Assembly: GCA_963575645.1 (NCBI GenBank)
Contig: OY754475.1
Coordinates: 15,910,509-15,974,508, forward strand
DNA length: 64,000 nt
Direction of reading: 5' to 3'
Source: Xanthostigma xanthostigma
Taxonomy: Eukaryota > Arthropoda > Insecta > Raphidioptera > Raphidiidae
The translations under genes and the position numbers were made by a program. A model generated the notes under the pieces. It did not search any database. It saw only the letters and a program-made list of their open reading frames with translations, and was not told the origin of the DNA. Each line of letters opens with the position of its first letter. Position 1 is the first letter of the stretch. Positions 3,325 through 49,984 of this stretch are shown in pieces.

Positions 3325-3361
3325 ATCGTTAATAACAATCACGAAATGTGCTTCCATTCAG
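3325..3361 (+). pseudogene. Relic of ZAD exon 1 (gene A locus)
   Basis: The end of this stretch reads ATCACGAAATGTGCTTCCATTCAG followed by GTAAGA. It lines up with the 3' end of ZAD exon 1 in gene C (ATTATGACATGCACTCCCATTCAG|GTAACA) and gene B. In that frame it encodes ITKCASIQ, against VIMTCTPIQ in gene C. Stops lie just upstream and the Leu-Cys-Arg-Leu-Cys zinc-binding part is not visible, so the exon is truncated. The splice donor is still recognisable. Confidence 0.65.
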
Positions 3362-3624
3362 GTAAGAACGTGTGTTTTACTGGGCATAAATGAAGATAAA
3401 AATTGAAATAAAGATTTCAGATAGATATATACTACTGAAAATGTTATATAAAAAAGGTATTACTGTAATTATAGCGGTATATTGAAAGCTCGTTAAGTGC
3501 CCTCAAATAAATATAGGTAGGTATTACGAGAAATCGGTTCTTTTGCTTCGAGTAGGTAGGCGTTACTTAGTACTTATCTGTTCAAAAGAATTAAGCAGAA
3601 TTCGTATGAATAAATGACAAAACA

Positions 3625-3905
3625 ATAAAAATTTAAAACCCCCATAAAAATGTTATGAGATATTTGCGCCAAAAATCCCTTGGGGGTTTTTCATGTCTCA
3701 CCAAGGTCAACAAATGCCCAAAGTTTCATTCCCATTGGAGAAAACACCTTTCCACATCGTTAAAGTAATATTTCTATGAATAAATGGTAAAAACTTTAAA
3801 CGCCCATAAAAATGGCGCCAAAAATCCCTAGTGGGTTTTTCATGTTCCACCAAGGTCAACAAATGCGCAAAATTTCATCCCGATCGAAGATGACCGGTAT
3901 GCGAA
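3625..3905 (+). repeat. Two tandem copies of a dispersed repeat
   Basis: Two units of about 150 bp share CCCATAAAAATG, GCGCCAAAAATCCC and CACCAAGGTCAACAAATG. The same unit recurs in the opposite orientation at about 22160-22400, so it is an interspersed repeat. No coding capacity was seen. Confidence 0.75.
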
Positions 3906-3942
3906 ACTACACCCGAAATAACAAATTTAATTCAGTTTCATA

Positions 3943-4246
3943 CAAGGGCGTAGATATTTTTTTTCTGTGGGGGGGAGTAAAGCAAAAAAATCAATATTTT
4001 TTAAGATTTGTTAACCGCGAATGACCTTTTTTTTAACAACCTAACTTAAAAATTATTGTCATGTGCCCAATTGGTGAGGAAAAAAAACGTATGACCTTTT
4101 TTTACAAACCTGTCGAAAAAGAATCGAATGACCTTTTTTCGGCACAATTCTTTTTTCGTTTGTTGTGACTGAGAGCCTGCGGTTCTGATGAATCTTGGGG
4201 GGGGGGGGGGTAATTACCCCCTGTACTCCCCATATCTACGCCCTTG
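3943..4246. mobile_element. hAT-type MITE with perfect 8-bp TSD
   Basis: The 304-bp element has inverted ends CAAGGGCGTAGATAT / ATATCTACGCCCTTG and is flanked by the exact direct repeat GTTTCATA (3935-3942 and 4247-4254). An 8-bp duplication and CA(A/G)GG termini are hAT hallmarks. A relative with its own 8-bp duplication lies at 36101-36317. It has no transposase. It sits in what was the intron between the two ZAD exon relics of gene A. Confidence 0.88.
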
Positions 4247-4361
4247 GTTTCATAATCCAAATTTATAATACTATTTCTAACGCTAAAATGACGCCATATT
4301 ATGCAAAAATACAGTTAGATACTGAAATATGTTTTATTGTGCATGCACTTGTTTTTTTCAG

Positions 4362-4580
4362 ATAAATATGATGGAGTGCTAGTTTATATCTGAATATTGT
4401 TACATTCACTTGATGAAGAATATACAACTGTTCTAACAACATGCAGCTAAATTTGACACATTACGTTGCTATCTACAGCAGTTTATATAAAACCTGATTA
4501 TTCTTTTTTAACAAATAATTTTGAGTGCGAACAATCGTTTTCTTGTGAAGAATTTAATGTTCACTTCAATGTCTAGTAAC
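4362..4580 (+). pseudogene. Relic of ZAD exon 2 and old linker (gene A locus)
   Basis: After a polypyrimidine tract and CAG, the sequence ATAAATATGATGG, ATTGTTACATTCA, GAATATACA and CTACAGCAGTTTATA follows the order of gene C exon 2 (from 45193), with indels and a TGA. Further on, frame 2 from 4520 still encodes FECEQSFSCEEFNVHFNV, matching FENCEQ...YEFNV of gene C, before a stop. The present gene A frame begins out of frame with this relic. The ZAD has therefore been lost by frameshift rather than by clean deletion. Confidence 0.8.
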
Positions 4581-5618
4581 GAGGCTGAGGATAATAATAA
4601 CATGTCGATGAACGAAGATAGTTATTCTAGTCAGAAAACAAATCTAACATTTATAAATATCCCAACTAAGCATGAAGAAACAGAAAGTATTTGCTCGGAC
4701 ACTGCAAGTTTCAGTGAAGAAACAAAAATAATAGGTGCTACGAACACCACAATCGTTTGCGAAGGGACTGAAGGAAGTTTTAAAGGTTTTAAAGTTTTAA
4801 AACTGGATTTAGTGTGTTCCAGATATAAAATGCCACTGAACGCAGCATTAGATGAAAATCTTGTTATAAAATGTGACCCTTTTGAAAAGATCTATGTAAA
4901 ACAAGAGAACGAAGATTACGACGCCTCATTGTTTTCCACGTATGACGATCACAATGACAGTGATAGCGAAAAACGTATTCATACCGGTGAGCAACAACAT
5001 CATTGTGACGTTTGTAATAAGACATTTTCCCGGTCAGGTCATCTGAATAGGCACAAACTTACGCATACTGGAGAAAAACCATACCACTGTGATGTTTGTA
5101 ATAAAACTTTCACTCAACTAACTAATTTTAGTAGGCACAAACTTATACACACTGGTGAGAAACCTTATAAGTGTGAAATTTGTGATAAGACTTTCACCCA
5201 GGCAAGTAATTTTAGTAGACATAAGCTTACCCATTCTGGTGAGAAACCGTATAAGTGTGATGTTTGCAATAAAAAGTTCACCCAAACAAGTAGTTTACAC
5301 AAACATAAACTTTTACATACTGGTGAAAAACCGTATAAATGTGATGTATGTAATGTGAGCTTCACCCAGTCCAGTAATTTAAATAGTCACAAACTTACAC
5401 ATACTGGTGAGAAACCATACAAATGTGACGTTTGTGATAAGACTTTCGCCCATTCAAATTATTTTCGTATACACAAACTTATACATAAAGGGGAGAAACC
5501 GTATCAATGTGATATTTGTGATAAAAATTTCACCCAGTCAGGTCATTTGCATAGACACAAACGTACCATGCATTCATTACAATTGTATACTATAGCTCAA
5601 GATACTGGATTAAAATGA
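4557..5618 (+). CDS. Gene A: C2H2 zinc-finger protein, 7 fingers, ZAD lost
   Basis: About 353 residues from ATG 4557; a second in-frame ATG at 4569 is equally plausible. The first 140 or so residues are an acidic linker with the family motifs FINIPTKHEETE and CDPFEKIYVKQEN. Seven C2H2 fingers follow from about residue 148 (HCDVCNKTF...), joined by TGEKPY linkers; the last is C2H2 with four residues between the histidines (HKRTMH). All seven have complete zinc ligands. Relics of both ZAD exons lie upstream (3325-3361, 4362-4580), so this is inferred to be a ZAD-C2H2 gene that lost its dimerisation domain and now starts at a secondary methionine. A polyadenylation word AATAAA lies at 5713. Predicted role: nuclear sequence-specific DNA binding; target unknown. 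Whether it is transcribed cannot be told from sequence. Confidence 0.82.
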   Translation: MFTSMSSNEAEDNNNMSMNEDSYSSQKTNLTFINIPTKHEETESICSDTASFSEETKIIGATNTTIVCEGTEGSFKGFKVLKLDLVCSRYKMPLNAALDENLVIKCDPFEKIYVKQENEDYDASLFSTYDDHNDSDSEKRIHTGEQQHHCDVCNKTFSRSGHLNRHKLTHTGEKPYHCDVCNKTFTQLTNFSRHKLIHTGEKPYKCEICDKTFTQASNFSRHKLTHSGEKPYKCDVCNKKFTQTSSLHKHKLLHTGEKPYKCDVCNVSFTQSSNLNSHKLTHTGEKPYKCDVCDKTFAHSNYFRIHKLIHKGEKPYQCDICDKNFTQSGHLHRHKRTMHSLQLYTIAQDTGLK

Positions 5619-5712
5619 GGAACTAAAAGTTATTTTGATGTATAGAAGTAATTTTTTTATTTATTAAAATGTGTGTTTTATTTATTAATTTGACTAAACA
5701 ACACAATGTTGT

Positions 5713-5718
5713 AATAAA
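5713..5718 (+). promoter_or_regulatory. Candidate polyadenylation signal of gene A
   Basis: AATAAA 95 bp after the gene A stop codon, followed by a second A/T-rich AATAAA cluster. Confidence 0.5.
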
Positions 5719-6040
5719 AATAATAAATAATCTTTTTTAGTACCAGATAAAAGCATTACAAGGCGAGGTTCAGCCACTGGCTGTTTTTCAACCTAAACCC
5801 TAAATCACAATATCCGAGTAAATAGTATATTACATCACAAGGGCCAAAAGTTGAATTTTCGGCCCTGCGCGTCATGAGCCCGAGGCGAAGCCGAGGGCAT
5901 CATGTTTAAAATTAGTTTAAAATTGATAGAAAAAAGTTAATAGAATTTTAGGAAACAAACTGAATTTTACAATCAATGCTCTCATTGAAAATTTGACTGT
6001 CTATAAAATCGTTCCTTAGGCATTTTTAATAGGAAAAAAA
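5719..6040. other. Intergenic, repeat-like
   Basis: Contains a GC-richer word (GAGCCCGAGGCGAAGCCGAG, 5876-5895) that looks like transposon debris. No gene seen. Confidence 0.35.
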
Positions 6041-10228: not shown

Positions 10229-10254
10229 GTATGAAGTGTGCTCCCATTCAAGTA
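10229..10254 (+). pseudogene. Relic of ZAD exon 1 (gene D locus)
   Basis: GTATGAAGTGTGCTCCCATT followed by CAA|GTAGAA encodes VMKCAPIQ, the terminal ZAD exon 1 motif of genes B and C (VIMRYAPVL, VIMTCTPIQ), directly before a GT. The rest of the exon upstream is not recognisable. Confidence 0.55.
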
Positions 10255-11069
10255 GAACTTGTTTTTCAGCATTACCTAAAAATAGTGCGATGTTACTTTA
10301 AATTTTTATTGTATTGTCAGTCTTATTTTATAGTCGTAACTGTTGATGAATTTATAATTAACAAAATCAGTTAATTCATTTTCAAGCTACGCCGTGGTCG
10401 CCGTTGAACAGTTGGTCATTGTGTCGATTTGAAAATTAGTTCCTTTACTATTGTATTTCATTTAACTTTGAAACCAAGCCCTTATTCATAAAGCTTTATA
10501 AAAATAAATCTATCACTAAAGATGATAAAGGAACGTGTCAAAATTTGTTTAAAATATTTGAGTAATGTTGATCACATTTTGTCTTATTCCCATTTTGGTT
10601 TTTATAGAAGCTCAACAACTGAAGTAATAATAAAATTGCAATAAAACGATATAGCTTTTAGTAATTGTACATCTTAATTCTTAAATACAAAGTCTTGTAT
10701 TGTACATAATGTTATCTATTATATTTTCCAATACAGACAAAATCAAGGGCCTTGCAAAATTTCATTCAGAGTGGGAGAAAAGAGTAAACCGGCCAAAATA
10801 CTGCAGTTGGATTATACACGATAGTCCAATCGTTCTAAATGCAATTTGTGTAATTTTCAAGTGTCTAAGTTCAAAAATGGGAATTGTACGAAGTAAGCTT
10901 TTGAATTTTCACACTTTATTCTAAATTCAAGAGAGTAGCTGTCCTCTTTTCGCGTACGCATATAGGTACTAGACAAAGTGATTGTATTTATTGTATTAAA
11001 TTAGTGGACGTTTTGGCAAATATGGTTGCCTTTTTCAAAGTTGAATGTCAGTTTAGTAAAGGCCATCAT
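10255..11069. other. Former intron of gene D, no gene seen
   Basis: AT-rich sequence between the ZAD relics. A 74-codon open frame at 10700-10924 has no recognisable domain. Confidence 0.35.
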
Positions 11070-12027: not shown

Positions 12028-12112
12028 CTATTTGATGACGTTATTAGTTCCTTCTTAATCTACAAGCATCAACAAAAATTATATCAGTCTAATATTCAGT
12101 ATTGAAGATACC

Positions 12113-13663
12113 ATGGCTGTAAATCACGAAAATTATACTAATCTGGGAATAGAAATTGGTTTTATAGATATCCCCATTAAATGCGAGGAAACAGAAAATA
12201 GTGTCAATGAAGGAATAAAGAACTCTCTTACAGAAATTAAAGGACATCTAGAAGAAAATCAAATGGATATACTGAATTTCAATGAGCAGACTAGTTTCAA
12301 TTCCTCAACCGAAAACATGATAATAAAATGTGAACCATTTGAGGAGATCTACGTAAAACAAGAGAATGATGAATGTGATATCACTTTCAGTGACAGTGAT
12401 CATGTGTCAAGTCGTACTGATGAGAAGCCGAAACAATGTGACGTTTGCAATGAAAAGTTCGCACAGTTAGATTATCAACTTACACACGAGAAGCCATATC
12501 AGTGTGATGTTTGCTATAGGACTTTCGCCCAGCAAAGTCATAAACTTAAAATTAACGAAGAAATGCCTTTAAAATTTGACATTAAAGTTGAACCTAAAGA
12601 TGATAATTCATTAAATCTAACAGAATGTGCTGAGGATACCAAAGAGCCTTTGTCCCGGGTTGATTGTAGTGAAATCGTCTGCGAAGATACAAAGGTCGAT
12701 ATTAGTTACTACACTAAGTTGAGCGAAAACATGTGCATTGACGGGGAAAAGAAAAATTTTAAATCGGCGAAAAGACTCAAAGGCGAACCAATGAATGAGA
12801 ATTCATTAAATCTAACAGAATGTGGTAATGGAACTTTAATTCACAGTGACGGAAGGGAAACCCCCTGCAAAAATTCAAAGATCAATAGTGGCGACTTATC
12901 AGGAATGAGTGTAGCAGAATGTCGTGAAGAAGAGAAGAATTCTATTTCGACAAATTATGAGAGACATAAAAAGGCAACTGAAAAGAAGTATTATTGTGAC
13001 ACTTGTAATGGGAGTTTTACCAAGTCATCTACTTTGAAAACTCATATGCGTATACATACAGCTGAGAAACCATTTCTATGTGAGGTTTGTAATAAGTGCT
13101 TCTCTCAATTAAATCATTTAATTGGTCACAGACGCACACATGGTAAGAAACCATACCCGTGTGATGTTTGTAATAAGTGTTTCACTAAGTTAAGTAAATT
13201 AAATATTCACAAACGTACACACACTGGTGAGAAGCCGTACCAGTGTGACGTTTGCAATAAGTATTTCAGTATGGCATGTTCCTTAAATATTCACAAACGC
13301 ACACACACTGGTGAGAAACCGTATCAGTGTGACGTTTGTAATAAGTGTTTCAGTGTATCAAAAAGTTTAATTAAGCATAAACTCACACACACTGGTGAAA
13401 AACCATACCAGTGTGACGTTTGTAATAAGTGTTTTAGCAACTCAAGCAATTTAATTAAGCACAAACGTACACACACTGGTGTGAAACCGTACCGGTGTGA
13501 CGCGTGTGATAAGTGTTTCAGCAACTCAAGCAATTTAATTAAGCATAAACGTACACACACTGGTGTAAAACCGTACCGGTGTGACGTTTGTAATAAGTGT
13601 TTCATGGAATCAAGCAATTTAAATAGGCATAAACGCATATGTACTAGTGAGAAATCTTTTTAG
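12113..13663 (+). CDS. Gene D: C2H2 zinc-finger protein, 8 main fingers, ZAD lost
   Basis: 516 residues from ATG 12113, with an in-frame stop at 12056-12058 upstream. Residues 1-90 hold the family motifs GFIDIPIKCEETE and CEPFEEIYVKQEND. Residues ~107-150 are two collapsed fingers (CDVCNEKFAQLDYQLTHEKP, CDVCYRTFAQQSHKLK) lacking parts. Residues ~150-290 contain two copies of the linker module (FDIKVEPKDDNSLNLTECAE; LKGEPMNENSLNLTECGN). Eight fingers follow from about residue 293; the eighth ends HKRIC, so its last ligand is Cys instead of His. Fingers 6 and 7 share CFSNSSNLIKHKRTHTGVKP and are a recent duplication. The stop TAG replaces an expected CAG (Gln), and ghost fingers continue beyond it. 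ZAD exon relics lie at 10229 and 11640. Predicted nuclear DNA-binding protein. Confidence 0.8.
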   Translation: MAVNHENYTNLGIEIGFIDIPIKCEETENSVNEGIKNSLTEIKGHLEENQMDILNFNEQTSFNSSTENMIIKCEPFEEIYVKQENDECDITFSDSDHVSSRTDEKPKQCDVCNEKFAQLDYQLTHEKPYQCDVCYRTFAQQSHKLKINEEMPLKFDIKVEPKDDNSLNLTECAEDTKEPLSRVDCSEIVCEDTKVDISYYTKLSENMCIDGEKKNFKSAKRLKGEPMNENSLNLTECGNGTLIHSDGRETPCKNSKINSGDLSGMSVAECREEEKNSISTNYERHKKATEKKYYCDTCNGSFTKSSTLKTHMRIHTAEKPFLCEVCNKCFSQLNHLIGHRRTHGKKPYPCDVCNKCFTKLSKLNIHKRTHTGEKPYQCDVCNKYFSMACSLNIHKRTHTGEKPYQCDVCNKCFSVSKSLIKHKLTHTGEKPYQCDVCNKCFSNSSNLIKHKRTHTGVKPYRCDACDKCFSNSSNLIKHKRTHTGVKPYRCDVCNKCFMESSNLNRHKRICTSEKSF

Positions 13664-17615: not shown

Positions 17616-17950
17616 CTAGTGTATATGTCTAAATGACAGTGGCCTTACAAGACTAAGACTATCTTTTCAATGAAAACGGTCCGAGGGTCAAAGAATGTCG
17701 TATCGCATACATCGCGGACGGTTTTGATTTTATTAATTAATTAAATAAACGCGAACTAAGCTATGGCCATCTATACGCAGCGCGCCTAGATAACTGCAAA
17801 CGTTCGAGCGACAATGACAACTATAGAGTATCAACAACACTACAAGCGAACGTGCGTCTCGGCTAATAGTATGCGCACATACATACGCGTATAATTATTA
17901 TAATCAAGAATAATGTACTAAATAACGTACATTAATAAAAAGTTTAGGGC
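17616..17950. other. Upstream flank of pseudogene E
   Basis: No gene or repeat recognised. Confidence 0.3.
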
Positions 17951-19387
17951 AAATCCCAATGTTTAATATCTTTAAATTTAACATTCGTAACACCTTCTGA
18001 TAATTCTCCAAACTATGAAACTAATCCAGATATCATTTTGAGGCGTGAATCTTTAGAACTCCAAGACGCGTTTGATGTGGGAGGAATGACAAGTGAAGAT
18101 TCAAAAATAGATATTGGTGCCGTTATATTTGATGAAGATATGAATGTCAACTGGAAAGAAGAACCAGGAAAGTTTAACAGAACGGATGAAATCAAAGACG
18201 AAATATCTTTAAAATCCGAGAATCATACTGATATTGAAACAATTCGACAACAATTTATTGCTGATACAGGAGATACTAATACAGATAGCATAACTGTGAA
18301 AAGTAGGTCTCTAGAACTCCAAGACGGCTTTAATGTGGACGAAATGACGAATGGTAATTTATTGCTTTCAACAGAATGTGCTGATGATACATTTTCAACA
18401 GATGATTGTAGTGAAATTACCTGTGAAGACACAAAAATCGGTATGGGTCCCATATTTAATGAAGATAAGAGTGTCAACTGGGAAGAAAAGGAACTAGGAA
18501 ACAAAATAAAGCGCGAAGTGTTTTCAAAATCCGAATATCAGCCAGATGACACAGGAAACACTTCTTTTAATAGTGGCGGTAGTAAAATCGGCTGTGAAGA
18601 TACAAAGACGCATTTTGATCGCCGATCGGAGAATGCTTCGAATCTTCGTTCAGCCGATGTAAAGCATAATAAATGTGAAAGAAGCAATAAGAATGACTCT
18701 ATAAAACGTATGAACCAGAAAAAATAAATAGATTTAAAAAAAAGCCGCATCAGTGCGACGTTTGTAATAAGTGCTTTACTACTATAGGCTATTTAAAAAT
18801 TCATAAAAATATACATACTGGTGTGAAACCGCATAACTGCGACGTTTGCAATAAGTGCTTTACTCATCCAGCTCACATTACTCACATGCTCACAAACGTA
18901 AACATACCGGTGTGAAACCGTATCAATGTGACGTGTGTAATAAGTACTTTATTACCTTTAGCTCTTTAAATGTTCATAAGAAATCACACACCGGTGTAAA
19001 GCCTTTTAAGTGTGACGTTTGCAATAAGTGCTTTACATCTTTAGGCTATTTAAATATTCATAAAAATATACATTCTGGAGTGAAACCGCACAAGTGTGAC
19101 ATTTGCAATTCGTGTTTTACTCATCCAAGTGACTTAAATGTTCACAAACGTATACATACCGGTGAGAAACCGTATCGGTGTAACATGTGTAATAAGTGCT
19201 ATACTACTTCTGGCTCTTTGAGTGTTCATAGAAATACACACAGTAATGTGAAACCGTATAAGTGTGACGCCTGTAATAAGTGCTTTACTACTTCAGGCTC
19301 CTTAAGAAAACGTTTCAGTGTGACGTTTGTAATAAGTACTTTTTTCAATCGCGCCATTTAAAAATACACAAACATATAGGCGAATAG
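17951..19387 (+). pseudogene. Locus E: C2H2 zinc-finger pseudogene
   Basis: An open linker frame (about 17951-18727) keeps family motifs: SLNLT near its start, LLLSTECADDT, DDCSEITCEDTKIGMG. It is internally duplicated: (R)SLELQDAFDV...NEDMNVNWKEE-like modules occur at about 18045-18175 and 18308-18490. It ends in TAA at 18725, in an A-run. The fingers restart in another frame at 18745 (PHQCDVCNKCF). A second frameshift falls at about 18862-18890 (THPAHITHM versus HYSHAHKRKHTG), and a third, with loss of a linker, at about 19305 (SGSLRK / RFQCDVCNKYF). About eight finger units can be seen, ending IHKHIGE-TAG. Three frame breaks in one locus make a functional single-exon gene unlikely; splicing around all of them is not supported. 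Confidence 0.88.
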
Positions 19388-24896: not shown

Positions 24897-27800
24897 ATGA
24901 CGGAAATATCAACATTTGACCGTAACTTGACTAAATTGTGTCGACTTTGTTTAAGAGGTGACTCAATAATGGACAACATTTTCACTTTTTCACCAAAACT
25001 AGGCGGTCGAACATCAGACGTCATCATGAGATATGCTCCCGTTCTGGTAAGAAAATAATATTAATTCAAGTTTTGAATGTTTTTCAGACTTTCAGTTAAA
25101 CGTGTTTTTTTTACTTGTAGTTATGATATAAAATTTTATATATTACACGCATAGATTAATTATTGACAAATGACAATTGCTTTTAGTTAAAGAAAGGTAT
25201 GTTCCAAAAGAACATCTGTTCTCTAATTGCAATGGGCAACACGGTTCGTCTAATTTACCAACAATATACCGTTGTGGTAATTTTAATTTTAATTCTAGTA
25301 ATTTAGAGCATAATATATGCTCTAAATTACTAGAATTAAAATTTTGTCGAAACTATGAGAGTAATCGAATTTTATCAAGAGTACCTTTTTTGTAGTAAAT
25401 GAGTCTCGTGATCCAGATTTCATACTCAAACTGATTTTTTTCCATTGGCGTAGAAGTTTTAGATGTTTAATTATCGAAAAAATCAAGTTCTACGCCCATG
25501 GAATGATATTCATCATTATTATGATATGGGTTTTATTGCCCAATAAAGCTATGCCAACGTACCAAATTTGAGTAAAATCTCATGAGCTGTTTCAAAGTTA
25601 TAAAGCAAAAACGATTTGAAAATTGTACACTTTAATGCGTCTGGCAGGATGATAGAACCCTCGAAACTGTCTGGCTACTAATGAAACATTATTTAATAGT
25701 TCTCCAAAAAATATATATAAAATTCAGCTTTTATAAAATAACGTAAATATAATTATACAAATTATAATAGTTTAAGGGTGTCTGGCAGGGGGTTGGAACC
25801 ATACTAAGTGTCTGGCAATGAGCGACGCGAGTTTTAATATTGTTACGAATGAAATATTAAAAAATTGAGTTTTATACAATGACGAATTTGAGATGGAATT
25901 TTATACACCTTTGCTACCGGTTACCTGCCAAAGCCACCACTACTCAGGTTTCATGGGTGGGGATCATTCTTACCTGTATTGGAGACATCCATAGAAAAAC
26001 TTTCAGCTTTTATAAAAATACGAAAGTCTGGCTGCCGCGGGCTCTTGGGCTATAGCGCCATGGAGTTGACGCACTATTAAGTATTTTGTATGTACTCAAA
26101 ACTATAATCTTCACAGATAATAACCATTCCCAATATCTCTCACAACCTACTGTGTGTTCACCGAAAGTGGTAACAGTGAATAATTCTTTTATCCCACTAG
26201 ATATGGAGAAAAATTAAACAGTTTTTTATTCAACTTGAAATTTACAATCGGAAACTGCTGAGGTTTATTTTTGTGTACTTCAAACTCAACCGGCAGTGTC
26301 CGTGCATTTTTTTTCAAATGACAACATACCTATAGGTATATTTTTTCTTGCATTTTCGAAAACTCCATTTTTTTCTCTATAAATTCATATAAAATTTTCG
26401 TAAGGTTACATAAGAAAATATTCGTGAAAAACGTTATCAATTAATAATAATAATTATAATAAATTTATTAACCTTTATATATGTTACGGTTAATGTCCGG
26501 AATCCGGGCAATGTTGACAATGCCTGAGCCACATCGGGCAATGTCCGAAATCGGACAAGGTTCAAAAAATAGATTTTTTATAAACATGAAACGCTGACAT
26601 TTGATTGTATCTTTATCATGATAAGGATTTTGGACATTTCCCGATGTGGCTCGGGCATTGTCGACATTGCCCTGATTCCGGACATTGGCCGTAACATATA
26701 TACATGCAAACCGCAGGAAGGTTCGTCAACTCATTACACAAAGTAAACAAATAAGTAATTTAAAATAACAGACAATTCATAATAAATATTAAAAAAATAA
26801 ATATCTATATATAGACATCATCAAATAAAAATTACTTTAAAAAAGTGAGCATTATAAGTATTCGTGAGCACGTTTATTAATTAATTAATTAATAAATTGT
26901 TACTTTTATCTTGAATATTTTCATATATAGGTACCTACATACTACATAACCGGGTGAAAATTTTATATGAATTTATTCAGAAAAAAAAAATTGGTTGTCT
27001 GTAAAGTCGGTTTACGGACGATAGTTTTACGTGATAACGTATTCCGTAATACATAACCTAAACCTCCCAAAATTTGGTTTCAATCCGCTTATCCTTGGTG
27101 TCGGAATGATAAGAAATGTCAAAAGTGACGTTTGCAACTTACAAAGTATTATGTTCTAATAATAATTAGTTATTCCAATACTTAACTTAGCAGGCTTTGC
27201 ATTTCACAATATACTAATGTCAAAAAATTGAATTAAACATTAGAAATGCAGCTGTTTTCATGTTAAGACAAGACATACGTTTGCTTCTAATTTCCATGTA
27301 CGGCAAACAAAGACAACCGACCGCGTCGTGCCATGCATTACACAACATTGCATTTATACAGCTATTTCTCTATATAAATTTGTATAAAATATTTTTCTAT
27401 ATAAATTTGTATAAAAAAACTGTTTAGGCAAATTCTGTTATACGAAATCTATGTAAAATGTTCTCCTCTTTCGTTTAAGACTGGTTTCAAACCGATCTGA
27501 TTTAAATTGAGCGAGAAATTAGCAAAAAGCACGCACAGGGTCAGGCGGAACGTTACGCGTTAGGAACGTTAGGAACGTTACGTTACACTTTTTCGAACAT
27601 GCAGCCGGTGTTTTATCAATTTATAATATTGGTGATTCATCAATTTATAAGACGTTATCACGTCAAAAACTGTTTAGGCAAATTCTGTTATACGAAATCT
27701 ATGTAAAATGTTCTCCTCTTTCGTTTAAGACTGGTTTCAAACCGATCTGATTTAAATTGAGCGAGAAATTAGCAAAAAGCACGCACAGGGTCAGGCGGAA

Positions 27801-30800: not shown

Positions 30801-33414
30801 TCTCGACGTTTCATAGCCTCCTAAGGAGTTTGGCACCATTTTTGGAAAAGTCTATTTATTTAAGTATAGAGTTAATCGATTTAAACGAAATTTGGTCCAC
30901 ATATGGGAATCTATCACCGCACGAAGTCTATTTAAAATGTGCCTAATCGGGGCATGTTAAGGGTGGTATTTAGGGGTTGCAAAAAGTTTTCAGGCCAAAA
31001 AATACCGAAAAAATTCTCGGAATCGTTTCAAGTTTTAATTGTAACCCTTTTGTAATTATTAAAATGTTCTGCTAAAGTTTTAATAAAATCGGCTTGACAG
31101 AACCGGACTTACAAATTTTTTGAAAACACTAGTTTACTAAAAAGGATTTACATACTGAAGGGCGTATATAATTGGGTACAGATATTGAATTGATATTAAT
31201 ATTGAAAATAAGTAATAAAATCTTGTTTTAAGGGGTGTATTGAGGGGTAATTTTTTTATTTTGCCCAAAAACAAAATTAAGTTCATATAATAGAGCCACA
31301 TTGCCTATAAAAGCAAATACACTAATTGTCGGCAGGGTTTGGCACTGCGACCCGAGTTTTCGATTTATATCGACAGTTTCCATGTCTATGAAAAATTAAA
31401 AGTAAAGCTTATTCAAATTATTGTCCTTTTTTTCGTTCTTGTAACAAAAGAATTACAAGAACTGCGGCTAAATTGTTGGTTTTTAGCGTTGTTATTCAAC
31501 ATGTTTTTGCCACTGTGAACGTCCGGGAACTGACAAACTCTTGTCAGATATGTACGTGAATGGTGAGATTTGCGATCGCCGGCAGTCCAAAAACTGTCAG
31601 TCCAAAACTGAAGATATCATCGTTTAGATAAACTGAATGGTGTATGGCGCACGACAGTTCAGATATGCAGTTTAGATCGTACAGTCCTGAGACTGCCGGC
31701 CGACTGTGCGTGAATGGGTACCTTTAAAGAGATTTTCGCAAAAAAAACGTTTTTTGTGACTTTTCATCCCGCGTAACATTTTTAGCGGCATATGTATCGG
31801 TGAGGACTCTTGATATATTGTTTAGAATCACAAAACGAAGGTTCATGCATAAATCTTGTTTTCTCCTAATTTTTCTACTGTAGAATGTCTCTATTCCCTG
31901 TATTGTTATTATTATTTTTTCAGATAAATAAAAATGACGAGCTGCCAAACTTCATCTGTAAAACTTGTTACCTTCAGCTGATAAACGTACACCAGTTTCA
32001 GTCACAGATAGTACAGTCTGACAAAACATTTCGTCAGTATGTTCAGCAATTACATGCTGGCGACAAGAAAATCGAACCTGGAAGTTCATTTATGTTTTTT
32101 GAAAATTTTGAACACAAGAGCCCTATTCGCTGTGATGAAATTTCTACTAACATGCCAACAAATCAAGACAGCTCTAACCAAGGAACAGAAATAGCTTTTG
32201 TAGACATTCCTATTAAATGTGAAGCTACGGAAGACAGTTGCGCGGACATGGCCAATTTCAGTGATGAAACGGATGCTGATCTTACCGACAACATAATTAC
32301 TTGGGAAAAAAATAAGAGTGGCCTTGAAGACAGCAAAACGAACGAATTAGAATCAAAATCTCAAATATTATGGAACGTAAACAGCAGCAGCGGAGAAAAT
32401 AAAACTCAACCAGTGAATAGCAAACAAACAGACAGTACAAAAAAAGAGGAAGAGGATTATTACTGCGATATTTGCGACAAGCATATAACTAAGTTGATGT
32501 CTTTTAAAAGACACAAGCGGCTACACAATAGCAAGAGAGTGTATGAATGTGACGTTTGTAATAAGACTTTCAATCAGTTGTGCAACTTAAACAGTCACAA
32601 ACGTACACACAGTGGTGAGAAACCATATAAATGCGATCTTTGTGACATGAGTTTTTACCACGCCTCTAATTTAAATTGTCACAAACGTACACATACTCGA
32701 GAGAAACCGTATCAATGTGACATTTGTGGCAAGACTTTCACCCAGTCAAATAGTTTAAGAAAACACAAACTTGGACATACTGAGAAACGCTTTCTATGTG
32801 ACATATGTAGCAAGACTTTCACTCAAGCAGTCAATTTGAGAAATCACAAAAAAATTATACATGGCGGTGAGAAACCGTATCAATGTGACGTATGTAAAAA
32901 GAGATTTCCTCGTTTAAAGTCTTTAAAATATCATTCGTACCAACACAGTGGTGTCAAACCACATCAGTGTGACTTATGTGGTAAATCTTTTCCCCTGCTG
33001 AGTATTTTGGTTAGCCACAAAAAAATTCATAGTGGTGATAGACCGCATCAATGTGACGTTTGTTTCAAGTCTTTCACTCGATCAAATGATTTAAATACAC
33101 ACAAACGTACGCATACTGGTGAGAAGCCATTCAAGTGCGACATTTGTTACAAGACTTTCACGCGGTCCGACCATCTGCGTTCTCACAAACGCACCCATAG
33201 TGGTGAGAAACCATATCAATGTGACATTTGTACAAAGTCGTTCGCTCAAATAAATACTTTGAAATGTCACAAACTCGCACACATTGGCGTGAAACGATTA
33301 AATACAGGCGAGAAACCATACAAGTGTGAGTTTTGCAACAAGTTTTTCTTTAGATCGACTGAATTAAAACGACACCAGATGTCAAAAAATCATATTGGCG
33401 CGACGTTGCAATAA
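24897..33414 (+). CDS. Gene B: ZAD-C2H2 zinc-finger protein (two exons, complete)
   Basis: Exon 1 is 24897-25046 (ATG; 50 codons; CTG|GTAAGA) and exon 2 is 31924-33414 (TTTTTTCAG|ATA; stop TAA). Both splice sites are phase 0 and the joined product is 546 residues. Residues ~12-90 form a ZAD: the four zinc-binding cysteines are C15/C18 (LCRLC) and C62/C65 (FICKTC), ending in the helix HQFQSQIVQSDKTFRQYVQQL. An acidic linker carries AFVDIPIKCEATE (a psi-K-x-E site). Eleven C2H2 fingers follow from about residue 229 to the C-terminus, all with zinc ligands; the last has five residues between its histidines (HQMSKNH). ZAD domains mediate dimerisation, so the protein is probably a dimeric nuclear DNA-binding regulator. 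The 6.9-kb intron contains only repeats, and no alternative ZAD exon 2 was seen in it. Confidence 0.9.
25283..25345. repeat. Perfect short palindrome in intron of gene B
   Basis: ATTCTAGTAATTTAGAGCAT followed at once by its reverse complement; the arms are about 30 bp with almost no spacer. Confidence 0.75.
25347..26477. other. Intron of gene B, repeat debris
   Basis: Contains an inverted pair TTCCATTGGCGTAGAA / TTCTACGCCCATGGAA (25441-25502) and several GTGTCTGGCAG words (25650-26030). No gene. Confidence 0.4.
26478..26700. mobile_element. Foldback MITE with TATGTTACGG ends
   Basis: 223 bp, inverted throughout: TATATGTTACGGTTAATGTCC...GGACATTGGCCGTAACATA, with CGGGCAATGTC-type words repeated inside. 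The flanks allow a TA duplication. The ends equal those of the element at 40674-41330. Confidence 0.82.
26701..26990. other. Intron of gene B, no feature seen
   Basis: AT-rich, with TTAATTAATTAATTAATAAA at 26877-26896. Confidence 0.3.
26991..27669 (+). mobile_element. Repeat family X1, full-length copy 2
   Basis: Almost identical to 6045-6730 over its whole length. The GTTAGGAAC minisatellite differs slightly in unit order. Confidence 0.85.
27670..27986 (+). mobile_element. Two partial X1 copies in tandem
   Basis: 27670-27910 repeats the 3' third of X1 (CTGTTTAGGCAAATTCTG to GACGTTATCACGTC). It is followed by the first ~75 bp of another copy (27911-27986). Confidence 0.8.
28350..28557 (+). 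mobile_element. X1 3'-end copy with expanded minisatellite
   Basis: Starts in GCACGCACAGGGTCAGGCGG and ends GACGTTATCACGTC. Positions 28378-28475 are repeats of GGAACGTTACGACCGTTA / GGAACGTTACGAATGTTA, a ~36-bp period. The repeat makes chance open frames on both strands. Confidence 0.8.
28582..29260 (-). mobile_element. Repeat family X1, full-length inverted copy
   Basis: Reverse complement of the X1 unit, head to head with the partial copy at 28350-28557 and only about 25 bp away, so the two can fold into a large hairpin. Confidence 0.85.
29640..30310 (+). repeat. Dispersed repeat with internal duplication
   Basis: AACAAATGAACCGATTTTGATACGGTTTGCGG at 29765 recurs diverged at 29921. The right end (30190-30310), including a (CA)n run, matches the repeat at 19630-19770 in the other orientation. 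Confidence 0.7.
30420..31724. mobile_element. Non-autonomous DNA element, ~1.3 kb, TA flanks
   Basis: Inverted ends AAGGTACCCATTCACGCACA / complement at 31705-31724, with TA on both sides (30418-30419, 31725-31726). The left subterminal region repeats CCCATTCACGCACAGTCGGC, GGAACTGCAGATTT and ATCTGCAGTTAA twice to three times. No transposase was seen. It lies in the gene B intron, ~200 bp before the exon 2 acceptor. Confidence 0.85.
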
Positions 33415-42877: not shown

Positions 42878-45800
42878 ATGAAGGAAGTAACAATAATTGG
42901 CAATGGCTTGAGCAAATTGTGTAGACTGTGCTTAAAGAATGAATTGAAATTGGATGACATTTTCTTGTTTTCATTTAAACTGGACGGTCGATCGGCAGCA
43001 GATGTAATTATGACATGCACTCCCATTCAGGTAACAAACTTTATTGGAGGGTTGAGTATTTCTAACGAATGGTCCTCCTTACTTGTTTTTTCCGATATGT
43101 GTGTAATTTTACTGTTCATCCTAATAATCTAAGATCTGGTATTAGAAAGATGTACCCTCATCTATTATTTAATGATGACAAAGATTATATGTTAGATAAT
43201 AATATGTTGAGTTCTATGTCCGTTAAATTAATAATTTATCAAATAATCCTTTACATCAGAAAATTGACACAATTATGGGGTTGTTAAACAGATGTATACA
43301 TTTAAGTCATGAAAAGTATCACACAAGTAATTTAAAAACAACAGTTGATATATAATATATTACATGTTAATAATTATCCTACAAAATTTATCAATAATTA
43401 ATGTATCAATCGGATTATGCAAAAAAAAACAATCGTTTAGATTTAAACAATGTAAAGCAGGATAAAAAGAAATACAAAATATTTTAAATTCCCATATATT
43501 AAACAATTATCACAAAAAATTGATAGAAGTCTTGTGGGCACCTGTTTTAGCTAGTTTACTAGTTTGGATCCTGATCCAAACTAGCATTCTATAACACTAT
43601 AACAATTAAAGATCTATTGTTCAACAAATTAAAAGATAGAACAGAGAAAGAAAAGATGTGCAATGTGGTTTATAAAATACCTACCGTGTGAATGTAAAAA
43701 GGCTTATGTTGGTCAGACATGTCAAAACTTATATAAAAGAATCAATTAACACAAAAATAATTGCAATCAAGCAAAATGTAAGTAATTTATACATGTATCT
43801 AACCCAATTTGTAAATTTGATTCTTACTGAACCTTGAAAAAGATGTAATATCGATCGAACGTTGGTGGAATAAATAATTAACTGCACTAAGTAGTCCTAG
43901 ATTACCCTTTAAAATTCAGTTAGATAATAATATATACATAAATAAATCACACATTGGTTACCTAGCTAAATCGCGTACAGATGCTGTTAGATTAAATAAA
44001 TTCTAATTGACTTTTTTGGATCAACTTCTCCGATTTGTTAATCATAAAAATCGAGCCTAAAATGAGAGAATATGATACAAGGAATTAGAATATACCTACC
44101 ATTGATTCTATAAATAAATATAGATCATCCACATAAACATACCTTGTAAATAGTTGTGTTCTGTGGACTTTGAGTTTATTTGTTTTGTTAAGGTTCTATT
44201 TGTGTCATATTCTCTCATCTTAAGCTCGATTTTTATGATTAACAAATCGGAGAAGTTGATCCCAAAAAGTTAATTAGAATTTATTTAATCCAACAGCATC
44301 GGTACGCGATTTAGTTAGGCAACCCATGTGCGATTTATCAATGTATAAATTATTATCTAGCATATATAATCTTTGTTTAAATCTTTAAAAATGTAATCTT
44401 TGACATCATCAAATAACAGATGACGGTATATATTTCTAATATCGGATTTCGCACTATAAATATATGTAAAATCAGTCGTTCTTGACATATTTTAGTTTAA
44501 ATAGAAGTACATATAGTGGCTGTTCAGGCCCTTGCATGAGTGTCCAGTTTTTTAAACTGGGTGCCAGTTAAAATTACGCGGTTTCGAAACTGTAGGTTGA
44601 AAAGTGTCTATGAACGTGAAAGCGACTAAGACGCTATGTGTAGGTTGAAGTGTGAGAGTGAGAGTATACCGGCGTTCTGGTTCTTGCGGTGCGATTGACT
44701 CTCGCCAAACTCATAGGCCTACATTCACGTATAATATTCCCAGATCACCTGGCAGATAAAAAGGGCCCACCAAAACGGCTCGTCTTTTCAAAAATATTAT
44801 TCTGTCAAAATCTCAGAATACCTAAAATATTTTTTTTTTTCGATATTTATGACTAAATGTTATTTTTGAAACCGCTCGGCAAACATTTACCGCCGACTAA
44901 ATAATCTGGGTTATTTATTATATATTTTATTAAATACTTAATTTGAAGATATTAAAATTTCAAATGCTTCAAAGACTTTTTTTACAAATAAAATTTCGCA
45001 AAGTTAATAATTCAAGGTTAGGTCCCACTACTTTTCAGACTGGTCTTCAATTCTGTGTTCAGACATTACAAAAAAAATGTTTCTCAAATCGCGTTGCATT
45101 AATAAATTAATAAATCACTGTGCCTCAAATACTTAACCAAAATTGTTTGATCGCTTTTGGACTATGTAGTATCAGTTTGATTTTTTTTACAGATAAATAA
45201 ATTTGATGGACTACCAAACTTCATCTGTAGCAATTGTTACATTCAGTTGGTGAATATACATCAGTTTCAGGTACAGGTAAAACGGTCTGATACAGTGCTG
45301 TGCCATTATCTGCAGCAGTTACGCACAGTTGACAAGAAAATAGAACATAGATGTTCGGTTATGTGTTTTGAGAATTGTGAACAGAAGAATATTGGTTGCT
45401 ACGAGTTTAATGTTGATCATTCTACTAACGTTGACCCAAATTCTGACACTTTAAAGTCCAGTTTTGAAAATAACGTACCGAGTATTCACGACAATTATTC
45501 TAGTCAAGAAACAAAAACTGAACATAATAATACAGATGTTCCAATAAAATTTGAAGAAACGGATATTGATTGTTTAGACATTGTTTGTGAGGAAACGAAG
45601 ATTGGTCTGACAGACACGATGGTTACTTGGGAGAAAACGAAGAAAGATCTGGAAGAAAGCAAGATGAAAGTATTGGTATCAAAAACTCAAATGATTAGTG
45701 ATCGGAATGTTAGTAATGAACAGTCAAGTTGGAGTGTCTCAAACGCAAATACAAATATAAAACGTGCTTCTTTTGTTAAACAAGAGAAAGAAATATTCGA

Positions 45801-46671
45801 TACCAAATTGGTTTCCACAACTAGTAATGATAATAACGCAGAAGACGATTCTAGTAGCTATGAAAAAACTTTGTCACATAAAAGAAAGCCGTTAGAACGT
45901 AAATATGATAAAAGACCACAAAACTGTGATGTATGCAATAAGTCTTTTACAAAATTATTTGATTTAAAAAGTCACAAACTACTACATGCTGGTAAGAAAC
46001 AGTATCAGTGTGGCGTTTGCAATAAGACTTTTAAATGCTCATCTAATTTGTGTTCGCACAAGCGTAGACATACTGGTGAGAAACCCTTCCAATGTAACAT
46101 TTGTTACAAAACTTTCAGATACTCAAGTAGTTTACATAAACACAACGTTATACATACTGAAAAACGATATGTATGTGACATTTGTGGTAAAACTTTCACC
46201 CAGGCCGTCAATTTAAGGACCCACAAAGTAATACATACTGGTGAAAAGCCGTATAACTGTGATTTGTGCAATAAGAGTTTTTCTTACGCGAGTTCTTTAA
46301 AAATTCATACCCACCTTCATACTGGAAAAAAACCATATTCATGTGACTTATGTGGTAAGACTTTCAACTCCTTAAGTAATTTGTATAGTCACAAACGTAT
46401 ACATACTGGTGAAAAGCTCACGTGTGCCGTTTGTTCCAAGGCTTTTCACCGAAAAAGTGACTTGGCTAGTCACAAACGTACACATAGTGGTGAGAAACCA
46501 TATAAATGCGACATTTGTTACGAGACTTTCAGACGTTCAGACCATTTGTGTGTTCATAAACGTACACATACTGGTGAGAAACCATATCAGTGTGACGTTT
46601 GTAAGAAGGCTTTTGCTCGCTTAAAGCAGTTAAAGCGTCATAAACCTACACATAGTACGGAGAAAATATAA
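42878..46671 (+). CDS. Gene C: ZAD-C2H2 zinc-finger protein (two exons, complete)
   Basis: Exon 1 is 42878-43030 (51 codons, CAG|GTAACA) and exon 2 is 45193-46671 (TTTTTTACAG|ATA, stop TAA). Both sites are phase 0; the product is 543 residues. ZAD cysteines are C15/C18 (LCRLC) and C63/C66 (FICSNC), ending in RSDTVLCHYLQQL. The linker has DVPIKFEETD and EETKIGLTDTMVTWEKTK, the latter close to gene B's ADLTDNIITWEKNK. Nine complete C2H2 fingers start at about residue 294; the seventh follows a shortened linker (GEKLTCAVC). Several fingers match gene B ones at the same position (YVCDICGKTFTQAVNLR against FLCDICSKTFTQAVNLR), pointing to a common ancestor. The 2.2-kb intron holds a Penelope-like fragment. 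An AATAAA lies at 46777. Predicted role: dimeric nuclear DNA-binding regulator; target unknown. Confidence 0.92.
43130..43995 (+). pseudogene. Penelope-like retroelement fragment with GIY-YIG motif
   Basis: Within the gene C intron, frames broken by stops read IMGLLNRCIHLSHEKYHTSN, then KYFKFPYIKQLSQKIDRSL, and then YLPCECKKAYVGQTCQNLYK with RIN-stop-HK. The last is a GIY-YIG-type signature (C-x-C..AYVGQT..L..RI..H) expected at the end of Penelope-like elements. The tail LEKDVISIERWWNK is also typical. Many stops; inactive. Confidence 0.75.
43920..44361. repeat. Inverted duplication of the Penelope-like 3' tail
   Basis: TTAGATAATAATATATACAT...CAACTTCTCCGATTTGTTAATCATAAAAATCGAGC is inverted at 44205-44361, giving arms of about 155 bp. 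Confidence 0.8.
44362..45192. other. Rest of the gene C intron
   Basis: No gene. Ends in a good polypyrimidine tract and acceptor (TTTTTTTTACAG). Confidence 0.4.
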
Positions 46672-47939: not shown

Positions 47940-49984
47940 TTTACATCCTTGTTGATGGTTGATTCATCTTTGTAGGTGATTGATTTTTTAAAACTTAAAG
48001 GGGTGGAATCCCAGCTTCTACATGAATGATGATGATGGGGGTGGATTGCATATACTCTAACGCAGTTCTTAAACCTTGATTTTGTAGGGTGTCTAGTTTT
48101 TTAAGTGTTTGGTTATTTGCTGTGCCATATAAAAAGGAGCCATAATTTAATATGGATCGTACGAAAGAGTTATACACTGTTGTAAGGACGGAGGGATCAG
48201 CTCCCCACCAAATACGAGTGAGGGCTTTTAATATATTTATGTATTTGTGGGAAATGGTAGTTATATGATTAATATGAGGGATCCACGATAATCTGGAGCC
48301 TAGGATAATGCCCAGAAATTTTGTTTAGGATTTAACTTCAACAGGTTGTCCATTTATAGAGTTGGAGATTAGGTATTTTCCTTTTTCTAGTAAAAGGAAC
48401 AGTCACTGATTTTGCTGGGGAGAGTTCTAGATGGAGGAAGTATAAGTATCTAGTTAAGCTGTCCAGGGAAAAGTTCATTTGTTCAAAACAATATTCGTAG
48501 TTACGAGATTATGTGTATAGAACTATGTCATCAGTATACTGAAGGTGACGCCAGAAAATGTTGGTGTGTGAGCCTAATTTTAAGGTGTTACGAGGTTATA
48601 GAGAATCGGAGATAAGACAGCGCCTTGAGGGAGACCTAAATATGTTTTTCTTGCATTGCGTTGAATCTAATAATTTGTATGGATCTGTCTGAAATAATTG
48701 AGTGAATTAGTCTATTGAGATTAAGACGTATATTAACCTCAACCATAATTTTAATGAGGGTTGAGAGGTGAACTCTATCAAAGGCGGATTGGATATCCCG
48801 AAAGGTAGCTAAAATAGTTTTGTTTCTTAAAAGCGACAACTGGATATCCGTAGTAAGGGATTCATAGTCTAATGTGCCTATGGCTTTTCTGAAGCCGTAT
48901 TGATACTTCGAGACCAGGTTCGAGGATTCTAGCCAGTACTCAAGGCGAGATTTAATTAGGTGTATTTCTAGAACGCAAAAGCCTTTGTTTGGCTTTAATA
49001 TAGGTATGACTACTGAGTATTTCCATTTTGAAAGAATAACACCTGTAGTTAGATAGACATTAGCAGTAGTTGCTTGGCGGAGGATGGGAGATGGACTATC
49101 ATAGAATAAGTGACATTATCAAGACCAGGAGAAGAGTCAGTAAGCCTGTTAAGAAACTTATTTAACTCTCACATAGAGAATTCGTTGGTCAGGGGGTGGA
49201 TATTGTTATCAAGTGTTGACTTATGAGGGTAGACAATTTTATGAAAGTTGGGAACGTAGTCAGGGGTGAGTTTGTGATGAAGTTTGGGTAACCAGATGCC
49301 AGGCTTACTACTAACACTAGGGAAGGGTTTTATAAATTTGGAGTAAATGTTAATTTTTTGCCAGATAGAACTAATGGAAGATTCCCTATTAAGTGATTCG
49401 CAATAGGACCTCCAGGATAATTTCTTTTTATGTGAGAAGGCACGCTTGGCTTTGGCTTCCGCATTTTTGTACAGAAGGAGAGATTCTTTTGAAAAGTTAT
49501 CGAGGAAATTATCGAGTGCCGACTTACGTAACTCTACCAGGGTGCGACACTCATCATCGCACCAGGGGGTAGGAGGTCAAAAGCGCTTCTTCGGTTTGGT
49601 AACAGGATTGGAACATCTGGAAGCTTGGTTTATGGTATCGAGAAGATTGCTATAGTAAGTTTTCAGTATGGAAAGTAGAAGAAGAAAAGTTATTGAAATT
49701 ATTATTAATAATAAATTATTAATAATTTTTCTATACGTAGGCCAATCAGTTTTTTTATGTAGCAACTTAGGTGCAACGTGTTGTTTTAATGTTTCCAGTT
49801 TAAACTTGGCAGAGTGATTGTATGCGGAGAAATCGTTTAAATTATTAATGGATATATATTAATATTATTATATTATACGACTGAACTTAGGTTTACTTTT
49901 TAAAAAATGATATTCTTTTTAAACGCTTTATATTAGTTTGGGTTGTAACTATGTATGTAACTAACTATGTATGTATGTCCGTAA

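Follow-up and report, generated by a model that had tools for sequence, protein, structure and literature searches.

The closest described systems are the ZAD-ZNF genes of insects (zf-AD, PF07776), which in Drosophila stand in tandem clusters, and the mammalian C2H2-ZNF genes with a KRAB or SCAN domain. In Drosophila melanogaster 37 of the 91 ZAD-ZNF genes are grouped into 13 clusters according to PMC7655104, which also describes the turnover of the family. THAP, another N-terminal domain, is reported in PMC9810180 not to have been preserved in CG17803, a ZAD-ZNF gene. Loss of KRAB or SCAN through sequence degeneration is presented in PMC2443715 as a recurrent theme, with the degenerate exon of the N-terminal domain still recognisable in the DNA. 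Among the literature matches listed, judged from titles and the beginnings of abstracts, there was no description of a lost ZAD with retained fingers; PMC7655104 tells of the opposite variation, ZAD proteins without fingers.

The locus described here belongs to a cluster of C2H2-finger genes in an AT-rich region (GC 33%). The whole stretch of DNA that was analysed, referred to as the window, is 64 kb long and contains seven finger ORFs, designated A, Z, D, E, B, C and F (Table 1). Genes B and C are, on their sequence, ZAD-ZNF genes with an intact ZAD split over two exons, and as in the Drosophila clusters such ZADs are combined with C2H2 arrays within one cluster. The first exons of B and C matched each other in tblastn with an E value of 1.8e-11. 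Three ZAD halves were searched against Pfam, both of gene C and the second of gene B; all matched zf-AD, the B half alone above the cut-off. Gene A resembles B and C in the order of its exons, in its linker and in the type of its fingers. The difference is that its ZAD is dead. The left edge of the window holds the end of an eIF2B-type gene (IF-2B domain), its ORF ending at 2935, just upstream of the gene A relics.

Table 1. Features of the finger-gene cluster (positions within the window)
Feature	Position	Strand	Remarks
Gene A, ZAD exon 1 relic, tail	3329-3361	+	ends in CAG before donor; fuller relic further upstream possible
Gene A, former exon 1 splice donor GTAAGA	3362-3367	+	
Gene A, former ZAD intron body	3368-4349	+	AT-rich; between donor and acceptor
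Gene A, polypyrimidine tract and splice acceptor of former exon 2	4350-4361	+	acceptor TTTTTTTCAG
Gene A, ZAD exon 2 relic	4362-4511	+	in-frame stops and several indels; of the two exon-2 zinc cysteines one is replaced; alignment extends to 4483
Gene A, TATATAAA, possible new TATA box (speculative)	4484-4491	+	at 16-nt gap of relic relative to B and C
Gene A, ORF	4512-5618	+	open frame, 7 C2H2 fingers
Gene A, old linker start NNFECEQSFSCEEFNV	4514-4561	+	one frame off present ORF
Gene A, present coding frame	4557-5618	+	first ATG, 353 aa
Gene A, other in-frame ATGs	4569, 4602, 4608	+	
Gene A, C2H2 array	5004-5573	+	seven fingers, 28/28 zinc ligands
Gene A, poly(A)-signal-like hexamers	5663-5727	+	starts 5663, 5713, 5722
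Gene Z, finger ORF	8196-7366	-	some zinc ligands replaced
Second ZAD exon 2 relic	9153-8973	-	stops; upstream of gene Z ORF
Gene D, finger ORF	12059-13663	+	
Gene E, finger fragment	18855-19361	+	
Gene B, ZAD exon 1	24897-25046	+	open, CRLC, ends before GTAAGA
Gene B, exon 2	31924-33414	+	ZAD second half with CxxC, linker, fingers
Gene C, ZAD exon 1	42878-43030	+	open, CRLC
Gene C, exon 2	45193-46671	+	ZAD second half with CxxC, linker, fingers
Gene F, finger ORF	57819-56017	-	

An earlier note on this DNA had proposed that gene A lost its ZAD and kept an open finger array. The intact array was borne out, the frame being open with all zinc ligands of its seven fingers in place. By its tandem fingers and complete ligands the product qualifies as a C2H2 zinc-finger protein, and in the codons for C, C, F, H and H of the seven units variation is confined to third positions. 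It is not a ZAD-ZNF protein by domain content, which would call for an N-terminal zf-AD domain with four zinc cysteines; zf-AD was absent from the best 25 of the 29 Pfam families of the frame. Nor is the frame disabled as in a pseudogene, since 353 codons are open from ATG to stop with zero ligand loss; the disabled part is the lost ZAD. The protein was also compared with other collections: viral contigs yielded no relative, NCBIfam gave six bacterial models, mostly zinc-binding and uninformative, and PDB gave 45 sequences, of which those listed belong to C2H2 proteins of a generic kind, ZNF568, CTCF and PRDM9 among them.

The strongest evidence for a former ZAD is the relic of exon 2. The acceptor TTTTTTTCAG is intact, and the exon would begin directly behind it. 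Aligned with exon 2 of gene C over 4350-4483, relic and acceptor scored 243, while 500 shuffled sequences gave a mean of 88 and a maximum of 140, so that none (0/500) reached the observed value; with exon 2 of gene B the score over 4353-4483 was 192 (shuffles: mean 87, maximum 141, 0/500). When the C exon with its acceptor was run along both strands of the whole window, only B, A and a minus-strand relic near gene Z stood out, gene A with 235 and the next bins with 105-107. The B exon gave 184 at the gene A relic and 137 in the next bin. The signal is fainter in translation, with tblastn E values of 0.005 for the C query and 0.11 for the B query. In a translated scan of the window the relic nevertheless ranked fourth for both queries, behind B, C and the minus-strand relic, with scores of 57 and 47 (next places 42). 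In the frame of the peptide FISEYCYIHL one of the exon-2 cysteines is now Ser, and four stops lie between 4362 and the start of the ORF. Exon 2 itself stood out with lax gap costs as well: in such an alignment 0/500 shuffles reached the scores for either B or C, as compared with 40/500 for exon 1. Long queries of exon 2 plus linker were reached at lax costs by 475/500 (C) and 388/500 (B) shuffles; the alignments were rerun with stricter costs.

Exon 1 is a different matter. The claim that region 3325-4580 aligns to the ZAD exons of B and C better than shuffled sequence held by far for exon 2 but was marginal for whole exon 1, where 10/500 (C query) and 13/500 (B query) shuffles reached the score. 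In the window scan with exon 1 a bin without any known ZAD outscored gene A (136 vs 112), in translation gene A was absent from the best nine places, with a similarity not above chance, and the exon 1 cysteines were not recognisable. The end of the exon is better preserved. Its last 36-39 nt together with the donor formed the top place of the window after B and C themselves for both queries, with 24/36 matching positions (next 22) and 26/39 (next 24, at a place upstream of the second relic), and the match finishes in register at CAG|GTAAGA (3361|3362). What stands of the proposed exon 1 relic is thus its tail of about 36 bases with the donor, and exon order, splice sites and linker homology of gene A are those expected of a descendant of a two-exon ZAD gene, with exon 1 recognised by this tail only.

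The linker connects the relic with the present gene. The sequence NNFECEQSFSCEEFNV of gene A is similar to FENCEQKNIGCYEFNV of gene C, and the DNA alignment of A with C is unbroken over 4505-4729, from the relic into the linker. Because homology is continuous across the frameshift, the exon 2 relic belongs to gene A. In its present frame the gene A linker matched the linkers of B and C in tblastn with E values of 6.5e-12 and 6.9e-10. The frameshift seen earlier at the beginning of the linker was confirmed in that the old frame of NNFECEQSFSCEEFNV runs one off the present ORF, but the CxxC part of the ZAD (FISEYCYIHL) is in the frame of the present ORF, so that at least two frame changes must have occurred rather than one.

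Taken as a whole, the sequence suggests that gene A is probably a retained finger gene without a ZAD, the ZAD having decayed in place. The decay of exon 2 and the 28/28 ligands agree with the original idea of ZAD loss with a kept array; the part of it that concerns exon 1 comes down to the tail. On this reading the ancestor of gene A was a two-exon ZAD-ZNF gene from the cluster that also holds B and C. Substitutions, stop codons and indels, together with a shift of frame where the linker begins, would have destroyed the ZAD, and the array of seven fingers with most of the linker would have kept its open frame. Purifying selection may have maintained the fingers after the loss of the ZAD, as the contrast with the relic indicates.

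It might be objected that gene A is a young pseudogene, dying as a whole, whose finger frame happens still to be unhit. This possibility, to which we give a minor though real share, draws on the clearly dead ZAD, on neighbouring gene Z, which lost its ZAD plus some finger ligands and so demonstrates that whole-gene decay occurs in the window, and on the weak constraint of the linker. It has to be measured against the extent of decay in the relic. In an alignment of exon 2 from three paralogues (one short gapped alignment with 178 ungapped columns) the branch lengths were 0.41 substitutions per site for A, 0.14 for B and 0.22 for C, i.e. the relic changed at about twice the rate of the B and C exons. 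The excess of the A branch over the mean of B and C was 0.23 (bootstrap 95% 0.09-0.39); measured against whichever of B and C has the longer branch it was 0.04-0.35, with a lower bound of 0.037 at which the neutral simulation is not decisive. In this simulation, which applied substitutions alone to the 353-codon frame and was run 1000 times at each distance, 3.9% of the frames were stop-free with 28 ligands at a distance of 0.03 and 0.2% at 0.05, and none of 1000 at each of 0.08, 0.10, 0.15 and 0.20; at 0.20 the frames had on average 8.3 stops and had lost 10.9 of 28 ligands. A neutral frame at the excess of 0.23 would hold several stops and many lost ligands, whereas gene A has none of either. 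Neutral drift of the size seen in the relic is therefore an unlikely explanation of the finger frame, and the suggestion that gene A is on its way to a pseudogene is disfavoured as far as the array is concerned.

Codon positions give a less pronounced picture. At sites where B and C agree, the changes specific to gene A over 4359-4610 are distributed flatly (17/52, 15/56 and 18/48 for the three positions); in the linker they amount to 32/79, 20/69 and 27/55. Relic and linker were each tested within itself by Fisher's test. For the relic p was 0.36 when positions 1+2 were compared with 3 and 0.29 for 2 vs 3; the corresponding values for the linker were 0.08 and 0.03, which points weakly to constraint on the gene A linker. 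The dN/dS values of the linker (A-B 0.44, A-C 0.37, B-C 0.28) are unreliable because pairwise dS is 1.5-1.9. Sequence comparison makes it unlikely that the array was renewed by recent conversion within the window, since six of the gene A finger units (all but the HX4H seventh) share at most 79% identity with any other pattern-matched unit there; a donor gene outside the window is possible.

If gene A is a retained finger gene, its working form would be a C2H2 protein that binds DNA without a ZAD, probably as a monomer, and is translated from one of the ATGs within 4557-4608. Two forms of mRNA may be considered. In the first, the old junction of exons 1 and 2 would be kept as 5' UTR, which is conceivable because donor and acceptor both survive. 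An assumed spliced leader of this kind has eight ATGs upstream of 4557, which would hinder translation from that position. In the second, a new promoter would have arisen within the exon 2 relic. It is speculative to let TATATAAA at 4484 drive a short leader, because TATA-like sites are common in the window: the plus strand has TATATAAA 14 times and TATAWAAR 38 times.

The earlier note had also suggested that the product could act as a dominant competitor at old binding sites. It would then occupy sites used by relatives that have a ZAD, itself unable to dimerise. Gene A does have a full array without a ZAD, and dimerisation has been demonstrated for several ZADs, as stated in PMC5081699. The same source reports that the ZAD is required for nuclear localisation in the three proteins Zw5, Pita and Grauzone, so on its account a ZAD-less protein need not even reach these sites. 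The contact residues of a finger are those at positions -1, 2, 3 and 6. For gene A these quartets are RGHR, QTNR, QSNR, QSSK, QSNS, HNYI and QGHR. In the six other finger ORFs of the window the pattern picked out 49 fingers, degraded ones of Z and E falling outside it, and in these 49 none of the seven quartets recurs. Among finger-by-finger diagonals with a minimum length of four, the best one, between A and C, has 40% of contact residues in common, as compared with 47% for B and C. Competition at old sites thus found no support within the window, and we regard it as very improbable, though a parent gene outside the window is possible; the retained gene A would rather have targets of its own, differing from those of B or C.

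Least credible of all is the idea that gene A still yields a ZAD protein through an exon from elsewhere, or that the relics derive from another, deleted gene: the splice signals of the relic are indeed intact, but the intact ZAD exons that the window was found to contain, those of B and C, are all located downstream of A, the eIF2B-type ORF ends just upstream of it, and homology runs unbroken from the relic into the gene A linker.

Gene A is not the only finger gene with a ZAD relic. The exon 2 relic upstream of gene Z scored 299 with B and 235 with C (0/500 shuffles each) and is as strong as that of gene A, and the array of gene Z is more degraded, with four units intact by pattern and two more with replaced ligands. 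A whole exon 1 was not found for gene Z, the scores being reached by 333/500 and 319/500 shuffles. An exon-1-tail-like match (24/39) with a donor GTAAGT was noticed upstream of it at 9651-9613.

The search for relics upstream of the other finger genes comprised 20 pairs (5 regions x 4 queries), so single low counts are to be taken as hints. Upstream of gene D, 10718-10933 (+) gave a full-length alignment with B exon 2 that 8/500 shuffles reached (454/500 for C exon 2), and 10237-10254 (+) resembles the tail of exon 1 with AAGTA replacing GGTA. The best exon 1 alignments for gene D (19/500, 25/500) lie at 10500-10642, away from this tail-like match. The gene D upstream region is a possible third ZAD relic, as judged from these alignments. 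Upstream of gene F a match resembling the start of B exon 2 was seen at 58149-58095 (-), with 41/500 shuffles for B exon 2 and 225/500 for C exon 2 (by eye VKKEDELYISSKT); exon 1 gave no signal there (349/500 and 227/500). The region upstream of gene E showed no signal of a ZAD relic, at least 272/500 shuffles reaching the score with all four queries. Gene E itself, at 17948-19380 (+), has frame changes, its linker frame stopping near 18727 and the fingers continuing in other frames, and looks like a pseudogene. It would be quite doubtful to generalise that the ZAD-ZNF clusters of this insect repeatedly shed the ZAD to give monomeric finger genes, with deletion in the dead exon providing gene A with a new TATA-driven start shortly before the surviving frame.

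Gene A can soundly be regarded as a new example of a known process, the loss of an N-terminal domain by degeneration, here in its ZAD form. As with KRAB and SCAN in PMC2443715, the degenerate domain exon is recognisable in the DNA; the differences are that the domain is a ZAD, that the animals are others and that two firm cases stand in one 64-kb window. In gene A an intermediate stage in the turnover of a very large family of insect transcription factors can still be read: the dead ZAD exon remains recognisable next to a finger array that looks alive, and two intact relatives nearby allow comparison. If gene A is expressed, it would test what a ZAD-ZNF protein is able to do without dimerisation or ZAD-dependent nuclear localisation.

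Two further features of the window may be mentioned. In what looks like an intron of the eIF2B-type gene there is a long inverted repeat (744-2685) whose arms measure about 380 nt and are 95-97% complementary in three pieces; a DNA transposon of the type with long terminal inverted repeats is the probable explanation. At 47995-49576 (-) there are several open stretches that by eye resemble the reverse transcriptase of a putative non-LTR retrotransposon.
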